Positions 2,361-62,034 of a stretch of DNA of 64,000 nt are shown here, one piece after another; positions within the stretch are counted from its first letter, which is position 1; every line of letters starts with the position of its first letter. The position numbers were made by a program, and so were the translations under genes. Origin of the DNA: Chrysoperla carnea (lineage: Eukaryota; Arthropoda; Insecta; Neuroptera; Chrysopidae); NCBI RefSeq assembly GCF_905475395.1, contig NC_058342.1:19440640-19504639 (forward strand), written 5' to 3'. The notes below the pieces were generated by a model, which ran no database searches, was not told where the DNA came from, and saw nothing but the letters and a program-made list of their open reading frames with translations.

Positions 2361-2376
2361 TTTTTAATAAATAAGA

Positions 2377-2510
2377 AAAGTTGAAAAAGCCAACACACTT
2401 ATGGCGGCCTTTTGGTCGACATTTGATTTGATTTGAAAAATTTTCGAAAGTATTTTCTAACATATTATTAGTTTTTCGAGAATATTTCACCAATAGTTGA
2501 AGCTTTCTGC
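2377..2510 (-). pseudogene. Coding-like segment retained in family A (copy a)
   Basis: On the minus strand this reads LLVKYSRKTNN...KCRPKGRHKCVGFFNF. A homologous translation occurs at 24,260-24,400 (IIVKHSRKTKK...WRPKGRD..NCIGFLNS) and, decayed, at 46,480-46,620. The shared K(H/Y)SRKT and RPKGR motifs suggest descent from a protein-coding part of an ancestral element. The function is unknown. Confidence 0.4.
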
Positions 2511-3588
2511 AAATTTTCAACTCCCTATCTATTACAGTTTTAGAGAAATAAGACACCAAAGTTTTGTTCTAATTTGTCCCCTCACAGATAAACGATTTAG
2601 ACGACAGCCCGATGTTGGAAATGGACTAATGTGATTTTAGGAACACCTTTACCAGAATTTTATTCGTACCATCAATATTTCTAAGCGTTACAAACTTGGG
2701 ACTAAAGTTAGTATACCTTGATTTATATTAAATACATACAGGGTATAAAAAGAGAGTCACTGTGAAAATTCATTCACATACATTTTATGTTTGTATTTGT
2801 TTGAAAAACTTTTTCCATACATATGAAGAAAAATAAATATTTGCCCTATTAAATTCACATTAACTATGTCTTTAACATGGCTGGATATTGGTATATACGT
2901 TGGTTGGTATCCCAAAGTCCTGTTTTTTCCTGCTTTTTTTTCGTTTATTAGAAATTTTCCATCGATTTTTTTCCCATACATTTTTTAAGGATATATTTGC
3001 ATTGTTTAAATTTTCCTATTTAAATAAATATATATATTTTTTTTGAATATTTTCACAAACTTTTTCGTATTGCAATGTGATTTATTTGCTTTACAGAAAA
3101 ACGACATGAATTCGTTATGTTATTGAACACATATATGATAATGACATTCGAAAATAAATAAATTGATTATACTATTGTGCATAAACAAATAAAAATTAGT
3201 GTATTTTACGATAATCGAAAAATTATACTATTGAAAACGATATACATATTACAGAGACCAAGGGCGGTTCGATTCATATTTGTTCAGGGCTGTCATAGAT
3301 ACTTTGAAAATGTATCTAGATAAAGATACAGATACTGATTATTCAGATACATTTAAAGATACATTTTTAATATAGAAAATTAAAAACTGTTAAATAATTA
3401 TTTTTATTCTTTACATTTATTTAATTCATTCAAGAATGTGTGTATTCTTTATAATTAAAAAAAAAAAATGTACAATTCATTCAAAGATTCAGAATGTAAT
3501 TGCTATATTCAATAATTATTATTGAGATAGGAAACGTACCTGAGAATTTTCGTAATAGATCGTGACACAAGTATTTATTTTAACCTCC

Positions 3589-14705: not shown

Positions 14706-15102
14706 AGAGATAGAATAAAACTTAAATAAGAAAGATGATCCCTATAAAAAAGCAAATAGTTTTTGTTTTCAACATTTTTTCTAAAAATGTTAACTTTCGG
14801 AGGAAATGTGACTTAAAAATATCTTATTATTTCATTTAATCGAAAGAAAATACGCTTATAGCTTATCGATAATCGTAGATAAAAGTCGTGGGCACAGGCG
14901 AATGTCGGCCATTGCCCTTGTCAACTTTTGGATAAAACATTTTTCCGTAGTTAGCGTGTTCTTTCCAATAAATGCAACAATAACATATTTCTAAGTCACA
15001 TTTCCTCCGAACTGATGATTTTCGAAAAAATGGTTTAATGGATGAAAAATGTTATTTTTTTATGAAGATCGACTTACTTATTAAAAGTGTTATTCTATCT
15101 CT
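14706..15102. mobile_element. Fold-back MITE
   Basis: The outer termini AGAGATAGAATAA / complement pair, as does the inner block CGGAGGAAATGTGACTTA / TAAGTCACATTTCCTCCG. Size about 397 bp, non-coding. No target duplication recognised. Confidence 0.6.
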
Positions 15103-18640: not shown

Positions 18641-18659
18641 ATTGCGAATATAAACTAAG

Positions 18660-19140
18660 AAACGAATTAGGGTCACCTACACCCATCTGTTTACCGATTG
18701 AAAGTTATTATTTATGAAATGTTAAATATCTACAATATCCCCGCGTTACCTAAGAAAATGTGGTCAAGACTACTTTTAGTGAAAATACCAAGTGCCAAAT
18801 TTTTTGGAATTTATCACTGACTTGCATCTCCAACGAGTTTTGGTCTACTCGAAAGAAAAAATCATAAGGAATATGCTGTAGCTACGAAATTTCTTTGGTT
18901 CACTATTATTAATTCATTAACTCGCATATCTAAAGACAATTTCATTGCAAATTCGATGGTATATGATTATCCACGAAATAGCAATAAAAAAACTACGTTT
19001 ACAAGTTTCGAAGTTTTAATATTTTTATCATATTTTTTAAAGCAACTCATTACCAAGACATTTATTATCATTTTACATTTCATAAAAAATAACTACCATT
19101 CTATAAACAGTTGAGTGAAGGTCGGCCCTAATTCAGTTTT
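18660..19140. mobile_element. Fold-back element
   Basis: GAATTAGGG..ATCTGTTTA and AGTTATTATTTATGAAATGT on the left pair with the complement at 19,070-19,140. Non-coding. It directly follows a family A copy. Confidence 0.5.
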
Positions 19141-20387
19141 TGTACTAATCAAAAAAAATTTCACTAGAATTCAGCTTGATAACCTCGAAATTTCAATTTA
19201 ACAACCCAAACAATATAAGAAAGCCCAAAATTATCACATGAACCTCGAATTATACATTCTACTTTCATCAGTTCTCAGGGTGTTTCTATTCGTCTACACT
19301 AGAAGACGTTTCAAAAACAGTATTGATTGGCAATTCTACTTTCAAAACACAATCAGAAGTTGCAATGATACATATCAGTTTTGTGTCATTTCGTTTGTAA
19401 TATACTTACAGCTTCCATTATGCATCACAAGAACACTATTTTCTATATGAGGGGTACACAGAAAGAACATACTAAGTCACATTGAACATTGAAATTACAT
19501 GTGTAATACAAGCGATTTCAATAAAACTTTATAAATACATTTTTTGATTAACAAAGTTTCAAAAATCACAAAAAATTCCTAGGTCATCGGGCTTTTTATT
19601 TAGATATATCTTTATTAAAAAATCTAGAGTGTGATAAAAAACTATCTAAAATATTTAGACAATCTTTTAGTTTATAATAATACCATAAAAATATAAGGTT
19701 GTCGATGATATAAAAACAAAATTTTATTTAATTATGATTTCATCGAAGATTCATCATTTGATGAACAGAGACGACTATAGTTAGAGTATTGATGATTGAA
19801 GAGCGATATCTATATTATCAAATTTAAAAGCAGCACTTGCACACAATATATAATATGTTTTTGTAGTTATTGTAAAGCCAAAAATAACTCATTACTTAAC
19901 TACAAAGCATGTATTTGGTTTATATGTATGTACCGTGCAATAAACCAAAACTTTTTTTTACAATACTATAGGTTTACAATCACCTCAATGGTTTTAAACT
20001 TCCTAAAAATGTACTTTTGATCATAAATTAAGTAAAACAATGTCATTTCTTTCAATTAATATTGGTTTCATACAAATTACACGTAATTCCTTCAAATCAT
20101 TTTGTTTTTTCAATGGATATCATTTAGTTTTCTCAAACATTTAGGTTAAGCGGGCGTTCGATTTAATCATATAGAGCGTTTGTCTATATCCAAACGCATG
20201 AAGTACTTGAATCAAACGATTTATATTTGGTATGAAGAACTTTGTTTTACAGTGTATCTAATAGTCCATGTTGAATAAAACGCTGTTCTTGAACTTTATA
20301 TTAAAAAATTTTAAAGCTCGATTTCTGCGTGACTAAGCTTCTTAGCGACAAAAAGATTTTGCCATGACATTCTACTTATAATTAAAA
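19141..20387. other. No gene seen
   Basis: AT-rich. Open frames of 70-74 codons at 19,238 and 19,796 have no recognisable content. Confidence 0.4.
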
Positions 20388-39100: not shown

Positions 39101-41056
39101 AATTTAAACGTAAACGCTTTAACTTTTTCGATAATCAGCGCGTATCCACTCAGTATCGCACTTATATACTAACTAAATGTAAATATAAATTTTTAAATAA
39201 GAGTATATTTCTTATTTTTGTGAAGAAAATTCGTTATTTTAATATTTAATTACAAAACAAAACCAACAGAGGATACACATTCTTTAATATGTAGTATGGT
39301 AGGTATCTGGTATATAGAACAAAAAAGATTTTTGTTATTTTCTTAATTTTCATCCGCGTGCCCTAATTACATATTCAAATTAAGTATTTAATATTTAGAT
39401 CGAATTTATTTTTTAAGCTGAACATATAATAGTATTTGTGTGTGTTTGTTGCTTTTAATATTTTATTAATTCTCTGTGATTTTTTTTCCTTCCCCACGAT
39501 TTTTATATACAGTGTCTGTTAGAAGTCCTTAACCATCCTTTAATGAGATTTTTCTTTTAAGGTAAGTCATAGCTGCATGCCCCCCCTTCCTTTCATTTTC
39601 CGTTTCCCTTTTTATGACACGTTCTGTACAATATTTGTATTGTATAAAAAAATTGAATTGAATTGAATACGCACCCTGGATTGGGTATTAACTTTTAAGG
39701 TCTGTTAAAGTCCGTTTCAAGTAAGAGATAGCAGACCACTTTTAATTAAACAGTTGTTCCTTATAAAAATACGAAAATTTTTTCAAGAAGTAAATAGATG
39801 CGACAGGAATTGAATGTAAATTGAATTGTGTCTTGAAATTTTGCAACTGTGTTTGATCATGAGATAAAGTTTTTAGCTTGTCCTTTCAATTTCAAAGTGA
39901 ATGTTATCTAATATTTATCCAAAGTTGGAGCCGAAATTAAATAGTTTTATTAGATTTTAACTTTCAATTTCTGGTATTGGATTTTAATGCTAAAATGTCA
40001 GCACCACGAGTAACAAATATGTAAACCATTCTCATTACAATCAGCTGATTAATGAGTAAAAAGGCAGGGGATATCTGCTTTAGTATTTTAATGTGCTGTG
40101 CTAAATTTGCTCCCCGAGTCTTTTATAATCACGATAATTTTCCTACTTTTTTATATAAATTTTGTAGTTTGTGTTGTTATATAAATTTTTTAATACAAAT
40201 TTTGGACCTAATTTAAAAATTTTTTGTTTTTGATATACATTTTGAATTTTTAAATTTGTATACTTTTTTACTTTTAATTTTATAGTTGTGTGTGTTTTCA
40301 AATGCATTTTTTTTAAATAAAAACAATTATTTTAATGTTTTATATAATTATTTTACAAAAATTGTGTTAATCAAAATTGTTGCAAAAACCTTTATTATAT
40401 GTTAATGACATATGCGTATAGTTTCAAGATTTTAAGCAAACATTTCCGTTAGATTTATGTATCTATGGGCGTTCTGAATAGTTCTTTTTTCTATCGCCAG
40501 ATAGAGTCTTTCTTAGCATTAAAATCCAATACTTCTTCATATTTTAAAAAATGTATCATACAAACGATTCTCTTATTTAAAGTGATATTATATCGCTTAT
40601 CAGTCACGAAAAGCAGTTGACATTTAAGTACCTTGAACGTCAAGATTCAATACAAAGTACCTATAAAATGCCAATTTTCGATATAAACAATTTGTTTTTA
40701 ATTACATTTTTCTGTATTTGACTGACCTTAAAGAAAGGTCTCATTGAATATCAAGGATTTTTTGACTAAAGACTTCTGAAAGATACTGTATCTTACGAAA
40801 TGTTAGAGGAGAAGTCACTAAACATCTGATTATTAAGATATAACCGACTGTCAAGATAAGGACTTAACATTTTACAATATTTACTTCCATATAAATGCTG
40901 CAAAATACAAAGGAATGTTATTAATTGTTAAAAAGTTCACATCCGACATTTAAGCCAAAAGACTCTTCAGTGAAGATATTTACACTTAACTTCTATTATA
41001 TTAAAATATTTTAAATTACAATTTTTATTTTTTGTCTATTTTATCAATTTTTGTAC
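39101..41056. other. No gene seen; possible LINE tail
   Basis: AT-rich. Near 39,635-39,668 a TTGTATTGTATAAAAAAATT stretch followed by TTGAATTGAATTGAAT resembles the short tandem tail of a non-LTR retrotransposon, but no reverse transcriptase remains. Confidence 0.3.
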
Positions 41057-41645
41057 TATATAAATATATGGTTCGACTACCATGTAGTCCTCATCAGTAT
41101 GAATAATTTTTTAAATAGTGTATATTACTTTTTGCTAATTTGGTGACGGTCTGCACACTGGTGTTTTGGTGTGTGCAAAATTTATAATTTTCATATATCT
41201 AATAAATTGTGACAGTGGCCAATCATCTGTGATCAGACGGTTAGTTAATGAGCGTGAATCACGTGATTATTTTAAACCAATATTATCTGAGTATTTGATC
41301 ACCGTATTTTGACACATAAAATAAAAATAAATTATGAAACTCAATAATTTTACAATTTCAAAATCCATCTTTATTCTAAAAATTCAATTTTAACTTTGAA
41401 ATTTTTAATAAAACCGAATTTGGAATAGCTTTTTTATCCAAGTTCATTGTTCCATTGTCTAGTTTTTTTAATTTAGATGCTTTCAGAGCCATTTATTTCG
41501 ATAGGGTTGTACACTCCTTTGTTGGGTACCGAAAAGTCACCCAATTAGCAATGATTAACATACACTATTTACAAGAGTAATTACGATTACCTTATTCATA
41601 CTGATGATGACTACATGAGAGTCAAAATGTGTATTTATATAATAA
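41057..41645. mobile_element. Fold-back element with hammerhead-like ends
   Basis: The two ends are inverted copies of a sequence holding ATTCATACTGATGA, a small GACT...AGTC stem, GAA/AAA and TATATTTATATA. The left core is 41,071-41,097 on the minus strand and the right core 41,601-41,628 on the plus strand. Such ends occur in Penelope-like and related elements. No open frame lies between. Confidence 0.5.
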
Positions 41646-43715
41646 ATGATTGTTCTTTAATTTTAAAAGTTCTCATTTAGTATCTTTGATAGAACCTACA
41701 TTATTATATAACTTGACTGCGTGTTTTACCTCGACCAAATAGTTGCTAAGTTTGTAAAGAAGGCTTTCTTTATTACCAAGTTTTCAAACTTAGGAATTAA
41801 AAAAAAAAGAGTAAATGATATTAAATAAATTTCTTTGATATCCAAATAAGTATCTAGGTAAATCTCTTTTCAGTATATTATTGTTCCCCAATGGCGGAAA
41901 TTTTACCACATTTGTCCATGTTTCGCAAATTTTTATTGATAACACTAAAGATCGTTAATAAGTTGACAAACAAAGGAGAAAAAGATTGAGAAGAACAAAG
42001 GAAGCATATAGCTGTGTCACCAAAACATTGAACTGAGATATTTTAATTAAAGGTTATACGAGTGAAAATGAACTTTTGATTATAAATTGGTAGAAACATT
42101 AAAGGTCAATTAATTAATTAACTTATTTATTTGTTAACATCGAAAAATTACAAAAAAAGAAGAGAATATTTATCCAGTAAGAAGAAAAATTCAAAAACCT
42201 AAACTAAGTCAGAAATTAGGAACATGCACGTAAAGGAGCATGCAATGTCCACAAAATACAGATAAAAAACTGCTCTTAAGTTCACCTTTTTGGTTTTTTC
42301 TAGACCTTTTCTTGAAGTTTACAGGAAAAGGCTTCTTGCTATTTTTTGTAAAACTGCCTGTTAACGAGATATTTATTCCTTAATATTCGCAAAACTTAAT
42401 GTTTTTTTTCAAGTCGATATAAAATTTAACAAAATTATTTATTTGTTTTATTTGAGATCGCTTTTTGACAACCAGATCATTAGCGACCACAGAGATTTAT
42501 ATATTATTTACATATTTAGAGCTAAAAATAAAAAATAAAAAAATTATTTTATTCTAAATAATTATTTTATAATTTTATCTATAATAGTGTATCTAATATT
42601 AAAATGTTTGTCTGGCTTGGACTTTAACAGACTGATACTATAACAGAAATTTTATAGACCGATTTTTCCGTCTCTACGCTTGTTAGTTGTAAAAGGATTT
42701 CACCGTAGGGTCAATTAATATTGCAACAGCACAAATTTTTTTCTGACTTTTTCGGAATTTGATGATTTTTGATGTTTGGAGAGATTTGATACAGACAAAG
42801 AAATAATTATATAACAATACCAATTTCTTTTCAAGTATGTCAACTGATTTACAATTTGGAATTCGAAAAATTAGCAACTGTGATTCTCCTATTTGATCTA
42901 CAGAGATAAGAAAAATAAAAGCTTCTATCGTTTTAAAGGTCTTTCCAAGATCATTTATTGATTTACATTACAATATAAGGTAAGACGGTAAATTTCATTC
43001 TTCAATTAAATTTGGATTTTAAAAAAAAAATTTTAAATTTTGAAAAAATCCAGCATAATAGTTCAGTTAAATTACCTCAAGCTGTTAAATAATGTAAAAC
43101 TTACGATCGAGAATGCTAAGCTGATTTCTGATTGATTGCATTAGCGTAGAAGGCGGTTAAAAGAAAAGGAGTATTTGGGGAACAACAACTTATTTATTTG
43201 GACAATTGTAGTTTTTCGATTTTCCCTGTCAAACTAGTCAGTTTTCAACTCGCTGTTACAAAAAAATATGGATGCCTAAAGTATCGCCATTTAAAAAATT
43301 AATCAAAAAATCTTAAGCCACACTCTATAAAATTACAACGATTTTCTACAGGGGTCAAAAGTCTCATGTTGGTGTAATTCTTTAAAAAACTTTCTGTTAG
43401 AATCATAATCGACATGTAAATTTTAAACGTAGAAAACACACAATATTCGTCACAAGCAGACTAAATAATTTATGATAACTCAATATTAAAACCTAAAATA
43501 AAGTCAATTTAAAAAGAATATTAAGTGTTGCATGTAAAAAGTTTGTTATATCAATCAACTCATATGTCAATATATACACAAAGAAAAAATACATATTTTT
43601 TTATAAAAATATTATATCGTCTACAAAATTTTTAAATAATTAATATGGAAAGAGACAATAAGAAAAACACAAATAAGGAAAAATAAAATAAATTATCGTT
43701 TAAACAGTAACATAT
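41646..43715. other. No gene seen
   Basis: AT-rich with many stops. No repeat family recognised. Confidence 0.4.
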
Positions 43716-44720: not shown

Positions 44721-46363
44721 AGATTGTATCCTTTTTGCGTCCTGTCTTTCTTTTTTTCTTTTTTTTTTTTTTTGGTCGGAGCTAAATCTTTTGTTTAAAC
44801 GTTTATAAATTTTTAATTCATTTAAAAAAAATTTTTGTTTTTCCAAACTAAAGTTGCAAACTTGAAAAAAATTTCGGTTTTCGACTAGAATAAGTATCCA
44901 AATATGCAAAAGTAATTACGCCAAATACTAATATGTCAAAATTAGTTTCAAATCATGTATATACATTTAAGAAAACAAAGATAAATTTACTTTTTTGCGG
45001 TTTTCTCCCTTAGAAAATAAATTTTAATACAAAAAATCTTTGTTTTAAAACAGAACCCTCTTTTCTGGTCGTTAAAATTTTTAGATAGAGTTGGCACGAA
45101 ATAAGGATAAATATTATTCTATTTGAAAAACCCTACAAATTAGTAACTGTCTATATTTAGAGATTCAAAGGTTTTTTAAGGTATGAAAAAATATTTGGAA
45201 ACGAATATTGGGATAATTACGATATTTGAAACGAAAACTACACAAAAATTATTGAATTTGCAATAAGATCATTCAAACTCAAATTTCCTTGGACAAGGAT
45301 AAAGGTTAAAACCGAAACCTGAATTTTAGTCTTTGCCAACGTTTGGGCAAGAGTTGGAAATCTGACTTGATTTAATCAAGACTTGTGAGAGAGTAATTGT
45401 CAACCCAAGTTTTGATTTATTAGCCATGCCCAGAGCTCGGTAAACCGAGATTTATTAGGTAAAGACATGAGTAATAAAGTAGAATTGCTGTATTATTGCT
45501 TGCTCAGTGATTTTGAAGTCTCAGGTCAAAAAAAGTACAGGGCGCTTATAAAATAAAAATAATAAAGTACAAAAAATTTTTATTGTGGTAAGTAAAACTA
45601 AATTATTATAGTTTTTTTATGGAATGTGCATGATAAAGTTAAGTGTAGCCTTGTTCCAAATTAGCTATTTTAGTTATTATTTTTCATTTTTTCGATTTGA
45701 AACAACTTTAAATTTGCTAATTATAAATTTTGATCATCCGTTGGTATTTCAAAAATGCAAATATGTCACCAGCCTGTGTTTTATGAAGGCTGATTTATGT
45801 TATACTAATAATATTAAATTATCTGTAATTTTTATTGTAATAACTTTATTTTATTTTATTGTTTGATTATGGTAAGTAACTGATTTTGTGTATCAGTAGC
45901 GTATCTAAAGTTAAAATCGCTTTCTTTGTAAAAAATTAAAAAAATAAAATTATTTTAGAAAGTTTTTTCTTATAAAAAACCGAATCAAGAGCCGGCGGAA
46001 ATTCACCTCAGCATAGAAATTTTCTAAGTAGCTGTCCAGACACATCCTTGTACCGAACTGTTTCAAACTAAATTATAAATCGCTGGATTATTGACAATTT
46101 ATACTAACCGGGTCCGTACATTCGAAAAGCAGGAAAACTTGGAAATAAAGAAGAAATTTGAGAAATAAAGAAAACCAATTCTTACAAACGAAACTCTTAC
46201 AGGCGATTAATTTGAAAATACTCTTTCACTTGTCAAATGGACCCGATTTTTGCATATTTAGGTCAAATTTTATATGGTCATTTTTTTCTAAATGTCAAAA
46301 AATTCAGAAAAGTTTTTAAAATTTATTTCTGTTAAACTCAGCATACTAATTTTAGCTCAAAAT
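44721..46363. other. No gene seen
   Basis: AT-rich. A T-rich tract lies at 44,748-44,774. Frames up to 80 codons have no recognisable content. Confidence 0.4.
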
Positions 46364-47848
46364 CAAGTAAAAACAAACAATTGACTGAGTTAATTGTTGA
46401 AATACCTTGTCTAGAAAGTGTTGAAAATCAGTGGTTGCATTTTTTTTTACAAATTAGAACAGTTTAAAAAACCAACACCATTATGGAGGCCATTCGGCCG
46501 CCATTTTTTTTCTTCGGAAATTTCAAAAATTTTTTAAAGTATTGTCTAGAATTTGGTTTTGTTTTGCGAGAATGTTTCACAAGATCACTAGTTGTAGCTA
46601 CCTGGAAATTTTAAATTCTATAACTATCATTTATACAGGGCGTTCTGTTATTAACTGCAGATCGTGGGCCTACAGAATAAGCTCATAAAGACGAAGGAAA
46701 AAGTCATTTACCAATTTTGGATCTGAGCCCTAATTTGGGCGCTACAGATATGACAAAAATTGATAAATTAGTAAATTCACTGGCTATCATTCGATAAACA
46801 GTAGCCAATGATTATAAGTAGATATTAATAAATGTCATTTGATAATATTCAACTAAAGAAGGGGTATGAACTGATTTCAATTGGGTTATATTATTTTGAA
46901 AAAAACATTTAAACAAAACTATTATGTTATCTCATTGGCTTGTTCAATTCCCACTTTTTTTATTATTATATATTTTGCAAGAAAACATTAAATTCTTAGT
47001 AAAAAAACAAATAACGTCACAAAGAAGGCGTTTTTTGTTTATTTACGCTAAATTAAAAAAACTCTTTTTGTGACGTAATTTGTTTTTTTACTAAGAATTT
47101 AATGTTTTCTTGCAAAATATATAATAATAAAAAAAGTGGGAATTGAACAAGCCAATGAGATAACATAATAGTTTTGTTTAAATGTTTTTTTCAAAATAAT
47201 ATAACCCAATTGAAATCAGTTCATACCCCTTCTTTAGTTGAATATTATCAAATGACATTTATTAATATCTACTTATAATCATTGGCTACTGTTTATCGAA
47301 TGATAGCCAGTGAATTTACTAATTTATCAATTTTTGTCATATCTGTAGCGCCCAAATTAGGGCTCAGATCCAAAATTGGTAAATGACTTTTTCCTTCGTC
47401 TTTATGAGCTTATTCTGTAGGCCCACGATCTGCAGTTAATAACAGAACGCCCTGTAGTTTAAGAGAAAATGGAAACCGAAGTTTGGTCTTAATTTGCATC
47501 CCCACGGATAAACAGTGACGTTTACAAAAAACTGTTTCAAGCAAAAGTTGTTTAATTTTTTATAAAGAATATTTTTTACATTTACATCTATCTCTAACGG
47601 TTTACAAGATAGGTCGTATGGACTCTAGACCCAATTGACCTATGTTCCTCATTTACGAACTTAGTTTCACTTTTTACGTGCACGCTATAAAAATTTCACT
47701 TTGATATCTCTCGGACAACTAAAAAAGGACAAATTAGGTGATTTCATGAACACATTTACCAAAATTTTGTTCTTAGCATCAATATTAAGCGTCAAAAACT
47801 TGGGACTAAACTTAGTACAGCTTGATATACATTACATACATTGTTGTG
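46364..47848 (+). mobile_element. Family A repeat, long form, split by a hairpin element
   Basis: Starts CAAGTAAAAACAAACAATTG. It includes the minus-strand remains of the K.SRKT segment (46,480-46,620) and is interrupted at 46,636-47,454. It resumes with AATTTGCATCCCCACGG and TTTACAAAAAACTGTTTC and ends near CTTGATATACATTACATACA. Confidence 0.75.
46636..47454. mobile_element. Near-perfect long hairpin element with TA target duplication
   Basis: An 819-bp fold-back. Left arm 46,634-47,023 and right arm 47,067-47,456 (including TA) are complementary with a single mismatch noticed by eye, around a loop of about 43 bases. Termini CAGGGCGTTCTGTTATTAAC. Flanked by TA on both sides, as for Tc1/mariner-type elements. 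No coding frame. Confidence 0.85.
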
Positions 47849-49176
47849 TACCAAAAGGTCTTTGCTGCCACCACATGGTCTTAATATTTGAAAAGGAAAG
47901 ACTTTGAGAATCCTTGAGGATGAATAAGACGTCTTAAAAAATAAACTCTGATATTCTGCGTATGATTTTTATTTTATTCGGAGCCTTTAAAAGATATTAT
48001 ATTAAATTTTATCACTTGTATTTTTTATTACAAATTAAGTTGCACTTGAATCTCTAAGTTGTAATAATTACTGTATGATTCTGATCAATTTCCAATGTCT
48101 TTAAATAGAAAACTTTTAGGTCAAAATATTAAATATTGTGACGTAAAAATTAAAATATTAAATATTAATTTTGCTGATAAGTAAATCTAATCAGAGCCAT
48201 CCATGCTGCTATCACACATTAGACCTCAATTCAATTATTATGATTGTTAACATAAGTAACTTAATAATAATAATAACCAATATAAATTCGCTGACTAGCT
48301 TAATGAACTAATAATTCAAATTAGGTTATTATAATTTTAAAATGTTATTATTTAATAATAATATGAATGATTTAGTGTGTTAGAACCACGTTTTTAAGGA
48401 TAACGCCGTCCAGGGCCTAGCAATATACAATTTATAATAAGACAAGAAAAGTTTTTTCAAATATGGCAAACTTAAATACTTATTTTTTTGGGAGGTATGC
48501 AAGATGCATCTTAACTCCCCTTAAGTCCGCCCCTGATATGTATATATCTGAAAAAATTAATAAAAATGAATCAAATTTTTTCAGTTTGTATCAAACGTGC
48601 TTTTCGGAATAAATTCTATATACAATAATATATTGAATAAACAATATAATGATAAATTTTTAGTGTTATTGAAATTTATGTTAGGGTTTACGACCAGAAA
48701 AAGGAAGAAATTATTCCATCAGTAAAAGCTTTTAATTAGAGTATTGAAAATACGTAACATATGAAACATGCTTGCGCGTATATTGACTCTATTATCTACA
48801 TTTGAGTTAAAATCAATTTCTTAGGAGTAAGTTATTTCGTCTTTAAAATTTTTAATAATTTTAAAATACTAGGTTTAAGAGGACGATTTGAAAGAAAGTA
48901 TTTTTATCATTGCTGACACGTTCACTTTATGGGATGGAGGGTCTAACCACATTTTTACGGTATATTACGGTGAGTCTGGAGTTCTAAGAAATACTGACTT
49001 TGAGTTTGTGCTATCTCTCCCCTCGAAGTATGGCTCACTTCGGTTGAACGCTGCCATTATGTCCATGGCATGTCATAATTGACCGAACTTCTTAGCAGAA
49101 TAACGAAAACATTTTATTTTCAATAAACGCCTTTTTTCCAATTATTTTTAGTAAATTTGATTGAATAAATCTTAAG
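47849..49176. other. Upstream region of the transporter cluster, no gene seen
   Basis: AT-rich. A 64-codon frame at 48,888-49,082 ends about 95 bases before the first transporter exon and has no recognisable domain. Promoter elements could not be identified with confidence. Confidence 0.35.
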
Positions 49177-50840
49177 ATGCCGAATGCTCATCAAGAATCT
49201 CTTAGATGGAAATATTCCAATGCTGGAAACTACATAACTAAAATGGAAACAATTCCAATCAAAAGGGAAGTTGAATATATTTTTGAAGAAGAAACGAATG
49301 AAGCAAGTAAAATAAATTTTCATTTTTCGAAGGAATTTTGCACACAATTTGGTATTTCGTTTGTTGGTACGTGTTTACTAATTTTTTTCACATCACTATA
49401 TCATGATCCTTTCATTCTCGCTCTGCTATTACTCCTCCCGAGACCCCACTTTACCCAGATCAATGCTAAAGAAGTTTTACTTTACAATTACTTTTTATAA
49501 TTTCAATCGATCATTTAATTTCAGTCAATTTGTTAATTTTCATCACCGGGACCCATTTAGGTTGGGTTGGACCAACGATTCTCAAATTATCATCAAATAG
49601 TTCAGAAATACCGTTAACATCATCTGAAATATCATGGTTAACTGCAATGTTACCACTTGGTGGAGGAATTGGTCCAATATTTGGAGCAATATTAGCGAAT
49701 AGAATTGGTCGAAAAAATGCAATCTTATTGACAACTATCCCTGAAATAATTACTTGGATTGCAATTGCCTATGCCAAAAACATCTATCATTTATGCATAG
49801 CACAATTTATAAAAGGGTTAATTGGAGGTTCTGCAATGGCTGCGGTACCAATGTATCTTGGTGAAATATCATCACCACTATTTCGTGGAATTATAGGAAT
49901 GTTGTTTCCATTAAATTACATTCTTGGAGCATTATTCGAAATCGTACTTGTACCATATGTTTCTGTAGCGACTAATGCATGGATTGCATCAATCATACCG
50001 TTACTTTTACTTGTAATTTTCATTTGGATGCCAGAATCCCCGTATTACTATTTGATTAAAAATCAAACAGACAACGCAAGAAAATCTTTACGAATATTAA
50101 AGCAAAGTGATAATGTTGACCGACAATTAGAACATCTACGAAAAGTTGTTAGGGAAGAACAAAATGAAGTCAAAAAGTTTTCACAAATATTCCGAGTCAG
50201 AAATAATCGAATTAGTTTCATTCTATGCCTCGGAATTATATCAACACAACATTTAACTGGACTAAATATTATAATTGCATACACTCAAGTAATACTAGAA
50301 AAATCGCATTCACCAATAGATCCTCACATCAGTGGAATTATAATTGAAATTTTTGGTTTAATTTGTGGTATTTCCAGTTTTTTTATGATTGACTCATTAG
50401 GTCGTAGACCTTTGATGTTATTTTCAACGTTTGGAACAATGATACCATGTTTTTTAATAGGTCTCTATTTTCACTTAGATTTTAATAATTTCGAAAATAT
50501 TAGCTCGATAACATTTTTACCTTTTATTGCACTAATTTTACATCAACTGACTGCGTCTCCTGGAGTTATTTCGCTCCCGTACGTGTATTTAAGTGAAATG
50601 TTATCCACAAACATTAAAGGTTTTGCTTCGCTGTTTATCTGTTGTTACGCATCAATACTTCACAGTGTTGAGAATAAGTTTTATGAAAATTTATGTGGCT
50701 ATATCGGAATGCATAATGTATTTTATTTGCTTGTATTTGGATGTTTTATAAGTGGCATTGGAACTTACTTTTTTGTACCAGAAACAAAAGGCAAAAGTTT
50801 AGACGAAATTCAAAGATATTTAAAAATTTATCACCTATGA
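49177..50840 (+). CDS. Tret1-like: Sugar transporter, facilitated trehalose transporter Tret1-like, copy 1 of 3
   Basis: A plasma-membrane MFS sugar porter, expected to move a sugar down its gradient by facilitated transport. I join exon 1 (49177-49366) to exon 2 (49525-50840, stop TGA) across a 158-bp intron with donor G|GTACGT and acceptor TTTCAG. The junction is phase 1 (g+tc = Val), giving 501 residues, close to the family's usual length. Visible motifs include a GRK loop after TM2 near residue 125, YLGEISSP...FRG near 174, PESP near 233, D..GRRP near 353-359 and PETKGKS near 482. Loop 1 has an N-S-S sequon. The TM7 motif is QHLTGLN instead of QQ.(S/T)G.N, and the TM10 GPxPW is replaced by a SLPYVYLSE segment. 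The N-terminus is about 20 residues longer than in the other copies; the Met at residue 23 is an alternative start that would match them better. The family assignment is firm. The substrate is inferred only. Confidence 0.9.
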
Positions 50841-53361: not shown

Positions 53362-56300
53362 ATGAACAAAAATTCAACCAAAATGGAAGTGGAATATATT
53401 TTTGATGAAGATGGTAATGAAGCCACCAACAAGAAATATTTTCATTTTTCGAAAGAATTTCGCACACAGTTTGGTATTGCGTTTGTTGGTATGTAAACAT
53501 TAAAAATTTTATGTTACATCGTCATAATCACACAGAATTGAAAGGACCTCGCACAAATTAGATGTAATCTGCATTTCGGTCAAATTTCTTTTAAATTTTG
53601 CGGAATGATATTTTAAGTTATTCTGGAGAAAATTCCCATGGTCATGGTCAAGTCATGAAAATGATAGGATTTCAAGTTATCGTTTATATAAAAAAAATAT
53701 TGTAATTTAATTGTAAAAATCATGTACGTATATATGTAGATGAAAATATTGATCTTAACACTTCATATTATTGATCCACTGAACATTTAACACTGCTTCT
53801 TCTTTGAATTTCGTAAAATATTCTTCAAAAAAACAAGAATTAAAAAACAAAACCCTTACATTAAAAAACACACGTATGCATGTAGTTATACATAAATCTA
53901 TATGTCATTGCCTATACAAACATAGGCATATATTATACAAAGAAGTACATTTTCCAACTTTAATTTAAATATAATATGAAATCCTATCATTTCCATGACT
54001 TGTGGCCATGGGAACTTTCTTTAAAATGACTTAAACTATCATTTGCAAAAATTTGAAAAGTTTGACCGAAATGCAGATTACATTTAATTTCTGCGAGGTC
54101 CTTTCTTTATTCGTTTGCGTTACTTGTTTTCTCGAAATTCCCTCAAAAGCTTATTTAACTAAGATCTAAAATCATTTTTAACTCATATGAGAGTGACAAA
54201 AAAAACTTCATCATAGTGGCGAGGCACCCGGGTACCTGCATATTGCTCAATTCTGATTAGTAGTGAAATGAAGGCACCCGAGCACCTAACCACTCTATTA
54301 TGGGAATAAAAACTGTTTTTACTTCCTCAAAATATTGTCAATGGGTTGATGAGGGTAAAATATAGGAAACTACAAAGTCTCAGGAGTTTAAAATGCTGAC
54401 TACAGTAGCTTAAAATGCGTAAAATATTTTTCTTTTTATTGAAAATGCAAAAGAGACTGAAGTACCTTGCCACTTTATTATGAGGCTAAAAAATTTTTAA
54501 TCTTCTTCAAAATATAGCCGATGGATTAACGGGGCCAAACCACAAAAAAAAAATGGATGTGAACAATAAAAATTGGGAAAATTAACAGACTTTTCGAAAA
54601 ATATAGGTAACCAGAGCAGGTAGAACATGAGAACCTATAGCATATACAAAATTCAAATCGATAGAGTAAAGGATATAATCGCAGTGCTTGAAATTCAAAT
54701 GTAACTTTAACCATTCTTATCCGGAAAACCGCTTTTCTTTATTAAGTTTGTTTCCACTTATGAATATTTAAGAGGAGCCTTAAAAAAATTTTAAAGTTTC
54801 ACGCCAATCAAATAATGACTTCACGTCATTAAAAACTGTGTGTAGAACTGTCTTAATTGGTGCCTCCAAGGCTTTCCCAGGTGCCTCGTTACTCACATAA
54901 AGGTTAAACAAAATTGGTATGAAATAAACTTTCCAATAAAGCTAATAGCATAGCGATTGACATTGTTTTTATTTAAGTCCTGGGATTCATTTCTGGTGTT
55001 TATCATTTAACGGTAAAAAATGTTTAATAATATTAAATAATTCAAAATAATAATATTAATATAATTCAAAATAAATATTTTCTTTTTAGTGAATTTGTTA
55101 ATTTTCATCAATGGAACGCATGTAGGCTGGGTTGCACCAACAATTCTCAAATTAACATCAAATAATTCAGAAATATCGTTAACATCATCTGAAATATCAT
55201 GGCTAGCTGCGACATTACCACTTGGTGGAGGAATTGGTCCAATATTTGGAGCAATATTTGCAAATACAGTTGGTCGTAAAAACGCTATTTTACTCGCAAC
55301 TATCCCTGAAATAATTACATGGATTATTATTGCATATGCCAAAAATGTATATCATTTATGCATAGCATTATTTATAAAAGGAATTATTGGAGGTTCTGCT
55401 ATGCCTGCTGTATCAATGTATCTTGGTGAAATCTCATCACCACAGTTTCGGGGAAGAATTCTAGGAATGCTTTTTCAATTAAATTGGGTATTTGGATCTC
55501 TATTCGAAACTATACTTGTGCCATATGTTTCCGTAGCGGCTAATGCATGGATTGCTTCAATCATACCGTTGCTTTTACTTGTAATTTTCATTTGGATGCC
55601 AGAATCTCCGTATTTCTATTTGATTAAAAATCAAACAGACAAGGCAAGAAAATCTCTACGAATTTTAAAGCAAAGTAACAATGTTGACGGACAATTAGAA
55701 CACCTGAGAAAAGTTATTAAGGAAGAACAAAATGAAGTGAAAAAATTTTCTGAAATATTCAGGGTTAAAAATAATCGAATTAGTTTCTTTCTATGTTTTG
55801 GGATAGTATCAATACAACATTTAACTGGGATAAGTATTATATTTCCATATACTCAAATACTGTTAGAAAAATCGAATTTACCAATAGAACCTCACGTAAG
55901 TGGAATTATAATTTCAATAGTAGGTTTAATTTGGGGTATTTCTACGTCGTTGATAATTGATTCATGGGGCCGTAGACCTGTATTGCTCTTTGGCACGTTT
56001 GGAACGATGCTACCATGTTTTTTAATTGGCCTATATTTTCATTTAGATTACAATAATTACGACTATATAAGTTCGATAACATTTTTGCCTTTCATGGCAC
56101 TAATCTTACATCAAATGACTGCATCCCCAGGAGTTACTTCACTCCCGTACGTATATTTAGGTGAAATGCTATCTACAAATATTAAAGGTTTTGCCACACT
56201 GTTCATTTGTTGTTACGCATCAATACTCCATAGTATTATTAGTAAATTTTATGTAAATTTGTCCGACTTTATTGGAATGCACAATGTATTCTATTTGCTT

Positions 56301-56411
56301 GTATTTGGGTGTTTTATAAGCGGAATTGGATCATATTTTTTTGTACCAGAAACGAAAGGAAAAACCCTAGATGAAATACAAACAGTTTTAAAATCATACC
56401 ACTTACAGTGA
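53362..56411 (+). CDS. Tret1-like: Sugar transporter, facilitated trehalose transporter Tret1-like, copy 2 of 3
   Basis: Second tandem MFS sugar porter. Exon 1 is 53362-53488 (starts MNKNSTKMEVEYIF) and exon 2 is 55090-56411 (stop TGA). The 1,601-bp intron has donor G|GTATGT and acceptor TTTTTAG, phase 1 (g+tg = Val), giving 482 residues. The start was chosen because ATG sits in an A-rich context and the following peptide aligns with the other copies. Motifs seen are GRK 104-106, YLGEISSPQFRG 153-164, PESP 213-216, QHLTGIS 285-291, D333 and GRRP 336-339, and PETKG 462-466. The QHLTGIS motif has changed at both the second Gln and the usual Asn, positions that contact sugar in well-studied GLUT/Xyl porters. 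The spacing RGRILG is one residue longer than in copies 1 and 3, and residue 67 opens an N-x-S sequon. An AATAAA lies at 56458-56463. The large intron carries at least two repeats. Confidence 0.92.
53541..54104. mobile_element. MITE inside the intron of transporter 2
   Basis: Inverted arms AAAGGACCTCGCA..AAAT and complement. They share ATGTAATCTGCATTTCGGTC, ATTCCCATGG and TCATGAAAATGATAGGATTT with the mirror arm at 53,970-54,104. Non-coding middle. No clear target duplication. Confidence 0.65.
54215..54525. repeat. Degenerate tandem phrases in the intron of transporter 2
   Basis: GGCACCCG.G.ACCT occurs twice within 60 bp. CCACT.TATTATG.G..TAAAA followed by CTTC(C/T)TCAAAATAT also occurs twice. 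Remains of a repeat element; family not known. Confidence 0.4.
54526..54815 (-). repeat. Dispersed repeat family D, copy 2
   Basis: Inverted copy of 1,005-1,275, inside the intron of transporter 2. A 62-codon minus-strand frame here is part of the repeat and is not an exon. Confidence 0.55.
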
Positions 56412-59724: not shown

Positions 59725-62034
59725 ATGAATAAAATGGAAAAGGCCGACAAAATGGAAGTTGAATATGTTTTTGAAGAAGATACAAATGAGGCAAGCAAAA
59801 TACATTTTCATTTTTCAAGAGAATTTTGCACGCAGTTTGGCATTTTGTTCGTTGGTACGTAACCTTAAGAATAATATAATAAGAAATATTGGGCTCACTG
59901 ACGATAATGAAACCTGGTGCCTAGGATTAAACCTTAGACTGCGCGTATGGAAGTTGACTATGACCATATATACTAAGTTGTATTTGTAAATTCAATCCGG
60001 TTTATATTGTATTAGCACAGTGCATTAGTTTTATTTCAGGCGTTTCTGTAGTAACGACACGCTACTTTATTAATATAATTTTATGGACGGACATGTAAGT
60101 CTATGGTTTGTTTATATAATTTACATTGAAATTAAATAAAATTTTCTAGCAAATTTTTATTATTAAAACACATTTTAAATAAAACGAATGATTTATGGCA
60201 AATTTTATAAGAGGACATCGCTGCAATCGATTCAGTTGTACTCTCCACCTACTACGAACCCAGCGAATAATTTTATTTTCTTTTTTTGAAATTGCATTAT
60301 GATCATAACGAATTTATATAAGCGCAGAGGACCAATCCTTGGCACACGGATTAATCACTATGCAACCTCACTAGGGAAAACATAGCTCCGAGTTTCATTC
60401 ATATAACCTCAAAGAGAAAGTGAAACTTCTTCAATTGTTTGTGTTATTTGTTTTCTCCATGATTTATCCACGATTATTTTTGCATAGCATAACTTTTTGT
60501 TTGTAAGTGTTAATTAAATATTCACTGTACTTTTCACCCTGTTTTAACATAAGATGTATTTATTATCTGAGTCTGCCTCTTCTATTCACGAGCTCTTGGA
60601 TTCCTCTTAAGTGAGACACACAAGTTTTAAAGAAATATGTTGCAAAAAACTTTTCACTTTAAAAATCATTTAACATAATATTTTGAAAAGAATAATTTAT
60701 TTTTAGCAAATTTATTAATTTTCATCAGTGGAACTCACATAGGATGGATTGGACCAACAATTCTCAAATTATCATCAAACAGTTCAGAAATACCGTTAAC
60801 ATCATCTGAAATATCATGGTTAACTGCAATGTTACCACTTGGTGGAGGAATTGGTCCAATATTTGGTGCAGTATTAGCGAATGGAGTTGGCCGTAAAAAC
60901 GCAATTTTATTAACAACTATCCCCGAAATCGCCTCCTGGATTGTAATCGCTAATGCCAAAAATATATATAATTTATGCATAGCACAATTTATAAAGGGAT
61001 TAATTGGAGGTTTTGCAATGGCAGCTGTACCAATGTATCTTGGTGAAGTATCTTCTCCTCAATTTCGTGGAATTAATGGAATGCTTTTTCAATTACACTA
61101 TACATTTGGGGCAATATTCGAAGTTGTACTTGTTCCATTTGTTTCTATAGCCGTCAATGCATGGATTGCTTCAATAATACCCTTTCTTTTACTAATAATA
61201 TTCATTTGGATGCCAGAGTCCCCGTATTACTTTTTGATTAAAAATCAAACAGAAAATGCAAGAAAATCTTTACAAATATTAAGACAAACTGATCATGTTG
61301 ATCAAGAATTAGAACACCTAAAACAAGTTGTTGGGGAAGAACAAAATGAAGTACAAAAATTTTCGGAAATATTTCGAGTCAGAAATAATCGGATTAGTTT
61401 CTTTCTATGCTTCGGAATAATATCAACCCAACTTTTAACGGGTATGAATGTTATATTCCTCTACTCTCAAGTTATATTAGATAAATCAAGCTCACCAATT
61501 GAGCCTCACATTTGTGGAATTATAATTTCAGTTGTGGGTTTTATTTGTGTTATTTCCAGTTTTCTTACAATTGATTCATTGGGTCGAAGACCTTTATTGT
61601 TATTTGGCACATTTGGAACAATGATTCCATGTTTCTTAATAGGCTTGTATTTTCATTTAGATTCTATTAATTACGAACATATTAGTTCGATAAAATTTGT
61701 ACCATTCCTTGCATTAATCGTACATCATATAACTGTTGTTCCAGGAATTACTACAGTTCCATATTTATATTTAAGTGAAATGCTATCCACAAGCATTAAA
61801 GGATTTGCTTCGTTGATCATTTGCTGCTACGCATCTATTGGTCATAGCATTTTCAGTAAATTTTATGTAAATTTATGTGACTTTATTGGAATGCATAATG
61901 TATTTTATTTGCTGGTATTTGGATGTTTTATAAGCGGAATTGGAACATACTTTTTTGTGCCAGAAACAAAAGGAAAAAGTTTAGACGAAATTCAAAAATA
62001 TTTAAAATCTTATAACCTTAAACAGCATTGCTAA
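59725..62034 (+). CDS. Tret1-like: Sugar transporter, facilitated trehalose transporter Tret1-like, copy 3 of 3
   Basis: Third tandem MFS sugar porter. Exon 1 is 59725-59854 (MNKMEKADKMEVEYVF...) and exon 2 is 60707-62034 (stop TAA). The 852-bp intron has donor G|GTACGT and acceptor TTTTTAG, phase 1 (g+ca = Ala), giving 485 residues. The exon joint falls at exactly the same codon as in the other two copies. Motifs are GRK near 105, YLGEVSSPQFRG near 154, PESP at 213-216, DSLGRRP near 333-339 and PETKGKS near 462. The TM7 motif is QLLTGMN, so the second Gln is Leu. The C-terminus (NLKQHC) is three residues longer than in copy 2. An AATAAA lies at 62160-62165. The sequence is closest to copy 1 across TM1-TM4, including the LSSNSSEIP loop with its N-glycosylation sequon. 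Nothing suggests a pseudogene. Confidence 0.91.

Follow-up and report, generated by a model that had tools for sequence, protein, structure and literature searches.

A near-perfect 390-bp hairpin in Chrysoperla carnea is very probably a recently inserted palindromic transposon with concerted arms

Introduction

How does an animal genome come to hold two arms of 390 bp, in inverted orientation and closely adjacent, that differ from each other at a single position? The question is raised by a locus of the neuropteran insect Chrysoperla carnea, within a stretch of 64,000 nucleotides (contig NC_058342.1; C6:19440640-19504639) that was analyzed whole and is here called the window. The source genome comprises 559 Mb in 337 contigs. 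On the evidence given below, we consider it very probable that the focal hairpin is a fold-back MITE of ~819 bp: a palindromic DNA transposon, non-autonomous and recently inserted, the arms of which evolve in concert.

Results

Structure of the hairpin

The focal hairpin consists of arms at 46634-47023 and 47067-47456, each of 390 bp and with one mismatch between them, around a loop of 43 nt. Identity is perfect over 379 bp (46634-47012 against 47456-47078); the mismatch lies at 47013/47077 and is followed by 10 further matches. A reading of the letters without database searches (hereafter, the sequence-only reading) had described near-perfect arms of about 390 bp with one difference and a loop of about 43 bases, and self-comparison of the arms confirms this. 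The inverted-repeat alignment is extensible to 408 bp at 98% identity, the gain being an inner stretch that matches poorly: all eight mismatches of the extended alignment fall at arm positions 380-404. Perfect inverted repeats within a distance of 3 kb reach at most 379 bp in the window, compared with 16-22 bp across 10 windows simulated under a first-order Markov model, and the predicted RNA fold of the hairpin has an energy of -654.9 kcal/mol versus a mean of -150.1 for 20 shuffles. There is no stop-to-stop frame of at least 100 codons within 46634-47456 and no direct repeat of at least 10 bp inside the focal arm. The element has precise CAGGG...CCCTG ends (CAGGGYGTTCTG) and a size of ~819 bp. 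The features of the locus are as follows.

46342..46633, plus strand: host repeat left of the insertion; outer limit approximate, several diverged copies matched in the window
46634..46635, no strand: TA, target-site duplication, left copy; TA stands on either side of 31/33 full-length copies, and the paralogous empty site L051:2900-2658 has one TA
46636..47023, plus strand: left arm, 388 bp, first letters CAGGGCGTTCTG; 377 bp equal to the right arm, mismatch at 47013, then 10 matches
46636..46743, plus strand: left terminal ~108 bp; 85-90% similar to the ends of other element families in the same genome
47024..47066, no strand: loop of 43 nt, the palindrome centre, from the arm comparison
47067..47454, minus strand: right arm, the reverse complement of the left arm, from the inverted-repeat match
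47347..47454, minus strand: terminal ~108 bp of the right end, from similarity to the ends of other families
47455..47456, no strand: TA, right copy of the target-site duplication, on the same evidence as the left TA
47457..47856, plus strand: host repeat right of the insertion; outer limit approximate, several diverged copies matched in the window

Insertion site and target duplication

The hairpin splits an interspersed, diverged repeat that has several other copies within the window. Insertion at TA within another repeat, as the sequence-only reading had it, is borne out by the TA...TA ends and by the continuation of both flanks into one host repeat. Paralogues run across the unoccupied site at window positions 2361-2593 and 24422-23970, and the best of them, L051:2900-2658, shows one TA at the point where the focal element is bordered by two, one per side. 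At a second locus, L037, the empty site is present as a 95% tandem copy within the locus, and a 2-bp duplication fits when this is read by eye.

The two exceptions among the 33 full-length copies to TA flanking both sides are L014, where the first four bases are unaligned, and L037, where one T is missing. The two bases outside the flanking TA are again TA on the left in 30/33 copies and on the right in 29/33, and the usual target is therefore TATATA. Four identical bases stand on either side in 26/33 copies, so that a 4-bp TATA duplication is allowed in these. For the focal copy, the 4-bp duplication is disfavored: on a window paralogue it scores 46 and the 2-bp model 50; joins with no TA and with one TA tie on that paralogue. 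For the focal copy and L037, the paralogous empty sites fit a 2-bp TA duplication better than one of 4 bp.

The hairpin lies ~2 kb ahead of the first of three plus-strand open frames of 448-456 codons matching the Pfam family Sugar_tr (49470-50840, 55065-56411 and 60679-62034). A much older long inverted repeat is found at 7144-7699/8317-8858, with ~617 bp between its arms (481 identities, 60 mismatches and 16 gap columns; score 391 versus a shuffled maximum of 17). Four further diverged inverted repeats of ~0.4-0.75 kb, at 53540-54105, 40968-41719, 18657-19141 and 14708-15100, each exceed the best of 20 shuffles, and inverted-repeat elements are therefore common in the window. The window contains no Rfam match at the gathering threshold and no tRNA according to ARAGORN.

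Copies across the genome

The sequence-only reading had proposed a search of the genome for further copies and had held that their absence would speak against it; the search was run and dozens were found. The arm query gave at least 81 matches in the genome (40 of 1822 candidates scored). A 22-mer from the inner arm has 122 genome-wide occurrences, 59 on the forward and 63 on the reverse strand, against 0/0 for the control. Among the first 100 of these 122 places, 78 form 39 plus/minus pairs, spaced at 330-350 bp in 37 cases, 212 bp in one and 421 bp in one, and the other 22 are unpaired. The 22-bp terminus has 275 exact genome copies (control, 0), a total that spans several families with the same end.

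We retrieved 36 loci holding 37 copies, along with a fragment in L040, and a further four loci with a single arm. The analysis rests on 33 full-length copies, L021, L033, L035 and L039 being left out as incomplete; the set comprises the copies nearest to the focal arm and hence leans toward young ones. Seven of the 33 lie in the opposite orientation and were re-oriented for the arm labels. All 33 align along the whole element, centre included, and three other copies are 99.6-99.8% identical to the focal element over all or nearly all of its length. The family shows the hallmarks of a MITE, namely many dispersed copies with precise inverted ends and a constant short target duplication. The single-arm loci were considered as possible long elements and rejected: L048-L050 have no partner end within 8 kb, and in L051 the partner end is 432 bp away, making it a deleted copy. 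At L016:401-2050 (C4:69348962-69350611), two complete palindromes that belong to different clades of the arm tree stand adjacent, with a few TA units between them.

Against public viral contigs, the patterns for the terminal inverted repeat (TIR) gave 0 and 3 matches, the three being 20-21 bp in otherwise unrelated DNA, and two further viral-contig scans gave none. Public genome contigs gave 0 matches for the TIR and 0 for the host-repeat motif.

Related elements and a second palindrome

Twenty extra loci, the first places of the end search and all on C1, reveal the relatives of the focal palindrome. Seven of them (L068-L071, L080, L082 and L086) carry an asymmetric element, 862-865 bp long, whose resemblance to the focal palindrome is confined to the terminal ~108 bp. 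L085 is a near-complete eighth copy of this asymmetric family, L067 and L081 are shortened and L084 is a piece. L072, L073, L075 and L078 hold relatives of the focal palindrome that are older or deleted; L079 combines one focal-palindrome end with a more distant relative, and L083 has kept only 108 bp of one end. The arms of L072 differ from the focal arms by 13.8-18.1% (arm positions 109-379); L072 was considered as a clue to which arm was copied and was dropped, its arms differing mutually by 11.2%.

L076 is a second palindrome, of 840 bp, to which L074 and L077 are related. Its arms have 2 mismatches over the outer 388 bp and its centre is unmatched. Each arm aligns over ~400 bp with the left half of the asymmetric family, at 78-81%, and the right TIR of L076 has 9/108 differences against the left TIR of L068 and 21/108 against the right TIR of L068. 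The simplest reading of the alignments is that a copy of one half of an asymmetric element replaced its other half; this would be a second and separate palindrome origin. The order may also have been the reverse, with the asymmetric element derived from a palindrome via replacement of one half. A 22-mer of L076 occurs 12 times in the genome (7+5), with three plus/minus pairs, of which one lies in the shortened L074, and the second palindrome family is therefore small by exact count.

Concerted evolution of the arms

Over 377 positions in the 33 copies, divergence between the two arms of one copy has a mean of 1.50% and a median of 1.06%, ranging from 0 in the focal copy to 5.05%. Between copies, divergence is 3.41% for left against left arms, 3.68% for right against right and 3.56% for left against right. 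When right arms were permuted among copies, none of 2000 permutations reached 1.50% (mean 3.5%, minimum 2.88%). A tree of the 66 arms has 25 changes between left and right labels, no fewer than with shuffled labels (mean 22.4). Forcing all left arms into one group costs the tree 304 log units, with a p-AU of 4.2e-5 from a bootstrap that had not settled fully; at that value, separate left-arm and right-arm lineages are rejected.

Among the 24 variants present in three or more copies, six are found exclusively as both-arm variants, 15 are mixed and three are confined to one arm; by cells, 122/178 of the shared variants are in both arms and 56 in one. Private variants number 27 in both arms and 106 in one arm, and chance double hits predict ~0.24 both-arm cells in all. 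From these counts it follows that the arms were equalized at some stage and that later mutations arose one arm at a time. Changes restricted to the right arm at positions 356 and 360, near the loop, are both common to the same six copies; arm differences near the loop are therefore heritable and homogenization is not obligate. Because divergence is lower within than between copies, variants recur in both arms and the lineage split is rejected, we infer that the arms have been homogenized, less so near the loop. The sequence-only reading had offered recent insertion or arm correction as the source of arm identity, and both apply: the focal copy has 0/379 differences and the family carries both-arm variants.

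A CpG in the TIR at arm position 6 (window 46641 and 47449) carries a C-to-T change in 11 single arms; no copy has it in both. From its pattern among the copies, this looks like recurrent CpG decay following insertion.

Discussion

Origin and maintenance of the palindrome

Our preferred reading is a non-autonomous palindromic transposon with concerted arms. A transposase made elsewhere would bind the terminal ~108 bp, excise the element and insert it at TA. A change in one arm would be transferred to its partner arm, either ahead of spread or in its course, by arm-to-arm gene conversion or by hairpin-templated repair, and mutations arising after insertion would remain in one arm. In the sister family, the palindrome would have been made via copying of one half of an asymmetric element over its other half.

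That last step could also have operated on its own. If each subfamily were a fresh palindrome formed from a single-armed or asymmetric ancestor, its arms would have been copied once and repeated conversion would not be needed, and both arms of L076 do match one half of the asymmetric element. Fresh formation of this kind sits poorly with the alignment of the 33 copies throughout, centre included, and the 27 private both-arm variants would require many independent formations; we consider it unlikely.

Youth alone is a still less probable explanation. The arms of a young insertion would be identical because the source palindrome already was, with no correction needed, and the focal copy, whose arms show no difference over 379 bp (upper 95% bound 0.8%), looks young, as do the three copies that match it at 99.6-99.8% over all or nearly all its length. 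Most shared variants are nevertheless in both arms despite the 3.4-3.7% that separates the 33 copies, which a young insertion would not produce unless each subfamily had its own founding palindrome, and the rejection of the left-arms-together tree likewise disfavors it.

The locus might instead be a candidate hpRNA locus, the long dsRNA of which would be cut by Dicer-2 to silence a target. The predicted transcript fold is nearly perfect, and in flies the arms of hp-ODox2 are homologous to a transposon, according to extracts of the published account (PMC10317233). In the same extracts, fly hpRNAs are recognized by a primary transcript together with Dcr-2-dependent siRNAs (PMC10317233); these loci and the focal hairpin have a long inverted repeat in common, and the focal one is known from DNA and a predicted fold. 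The arm and the rest of the window have no 17-mer in common, so no gene target is visible within the window, and a transposon family alone accounts for the structure. We therefore give an hpRNA function a very low probability. Long-read libraries are known to yield perfect palindromes as an artefact when a read is folded on itself. Here, however, the flanks are the left and right parts of a single host repeat and the palindrome recurs at dozens of other sites (33 full copies, each with its own flanks), so that an assembly artefact is exceedingly improbable.

Superfamily

The TA target duplication expected of a Tc1/mariner element is present, and we take the CAG ends of the focal element to fit Tc1/mariner or pogo relatives. 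Together, the duplication and the ends would suit an assignment to these groups. Genome profile searches gave 150 Transposase_1 and 97 DDE_1 matches; 15 loci from the former and 5 from the latter lack the focal ends, and the loci examined yielded no coding element bounded by them. The focal family is a candidate Tc1/mariner member at most, no transposase having been matched to its ends at these loci. Of the proposal of a Tc1/mariner-type fold-back, then, the fold-back mobile element at TA stands, and the class label is provisional; the search for an autonomous relative with the same ends, likewise put forward in that proposal, came back empty at the 15 Transposase_1 and 5 DDE_1 loci. In the genome search with PF01359 (C1-C6), more than 100 of the 150 Transposase_1 matches span only about profile positions 42-79, and these short matches point to what may be a large, decayed mariner-like family. 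The same search also gave more than 10 equal-scoring matches, most of them within open frames of 361 codons.

Comparison with known systems

The comparisons that follow draw on extracts of the published accounts. In aphids, mariner-like elements with long TIRs (LTIR) of 460-466 bp and TA duplications have given rise to MITEs from longer copies, and MITE5.1, of 790-822 bp, is related to Apismar5.1 with its 466-bp TIRs (PMC5490172). MITE5.1 and the focal element are nearly equal in size and both have a TA duplication. The printed aphid TIRs begin with TCACC and AATGT, and the focal ends differ from those of Apismar5.1/5.2 when the starts are compared by eye. Whereas the aphid MITEs are internal deletions of a coding element, the focal family has no coding relative among the loci examined, and arm-to-arm correction does not appear in the extracts of the aphid paper, in contrast to the concerted arms of the focal family.

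Galileo is a fold-back-like transposon of the P superfamily in Drosophila (PMC2775673, PMC4168063). The arms of GalileoN-1 and GalileoN-2 are >99% identical within a copy and ~7% different between copies, whereas GalileoN-4 and GalileoN-5 have a within-copy difference of ~6% that the authors ascribe to inversion (PMC2775673); one-sided sequence has also been recruited into both Galileo arms (PMC4168063). Like the focal family, Galileo has long arms and, in GalileoN-1 and GalileoN-2, greater identity within than between copies, but it has target duplications of 7-8 bp, a P-type transposase and, in the named copies, a middle of ~350 bp, in contrast to TA and a 43-nt centre. The foldback element Tetris has non-coding long inverted arms, 8-10 bp duplications and internal tandem repeats of ~220 bp in the arms (PMC4079207). 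The focal element is similarly non-coding and made up mostly of long inverted arms; it differs from Tetris in its TA duplication and in an arm with no direct repeat of at least 10 bp.

The PAL elements of Caenorhabditis elegans have a palindromic, TA-inserting anatomy. They are nematode elements, and the likeness to the focal element considered here is one of anatomy. PALTA3 and PALTTTAAA3 are listed as DNA elements expressed in embryos (PMC6873666).

Significance

The kind of element is already known; the part that is apparently new is a TA-targeting family with a data set for both arms. No description of these ends or this family was found in the literature searched, which was covered by titles and the openings of abstracts.

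A broader and tentative idea, which we consider unlikely, is that palindromy is both recurrent and maintained among these TA-inserting elements. Asymmetric MITEs would be repeatedly rebuilt into perfect palindromes by end-copying in hairpin repair at transposition, and the same step would keep the arms nearly identical except for ~25 bp beside the loop. The time since insertion could then be read from arm divergence, and dsRNA from any transcribed copies could hold the family itself in check.

The palindrome family is a natural data set on the formation of fold-back transposons and the upkeep of arm identity, in which both-arm variants are readable as corrected and one-arm variants as later mutations. 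A second palindrome and an asymmetric relative in the same genome allow comparison. Copies that are transcribed, if there are any, would be a natural source of long dsRNA.
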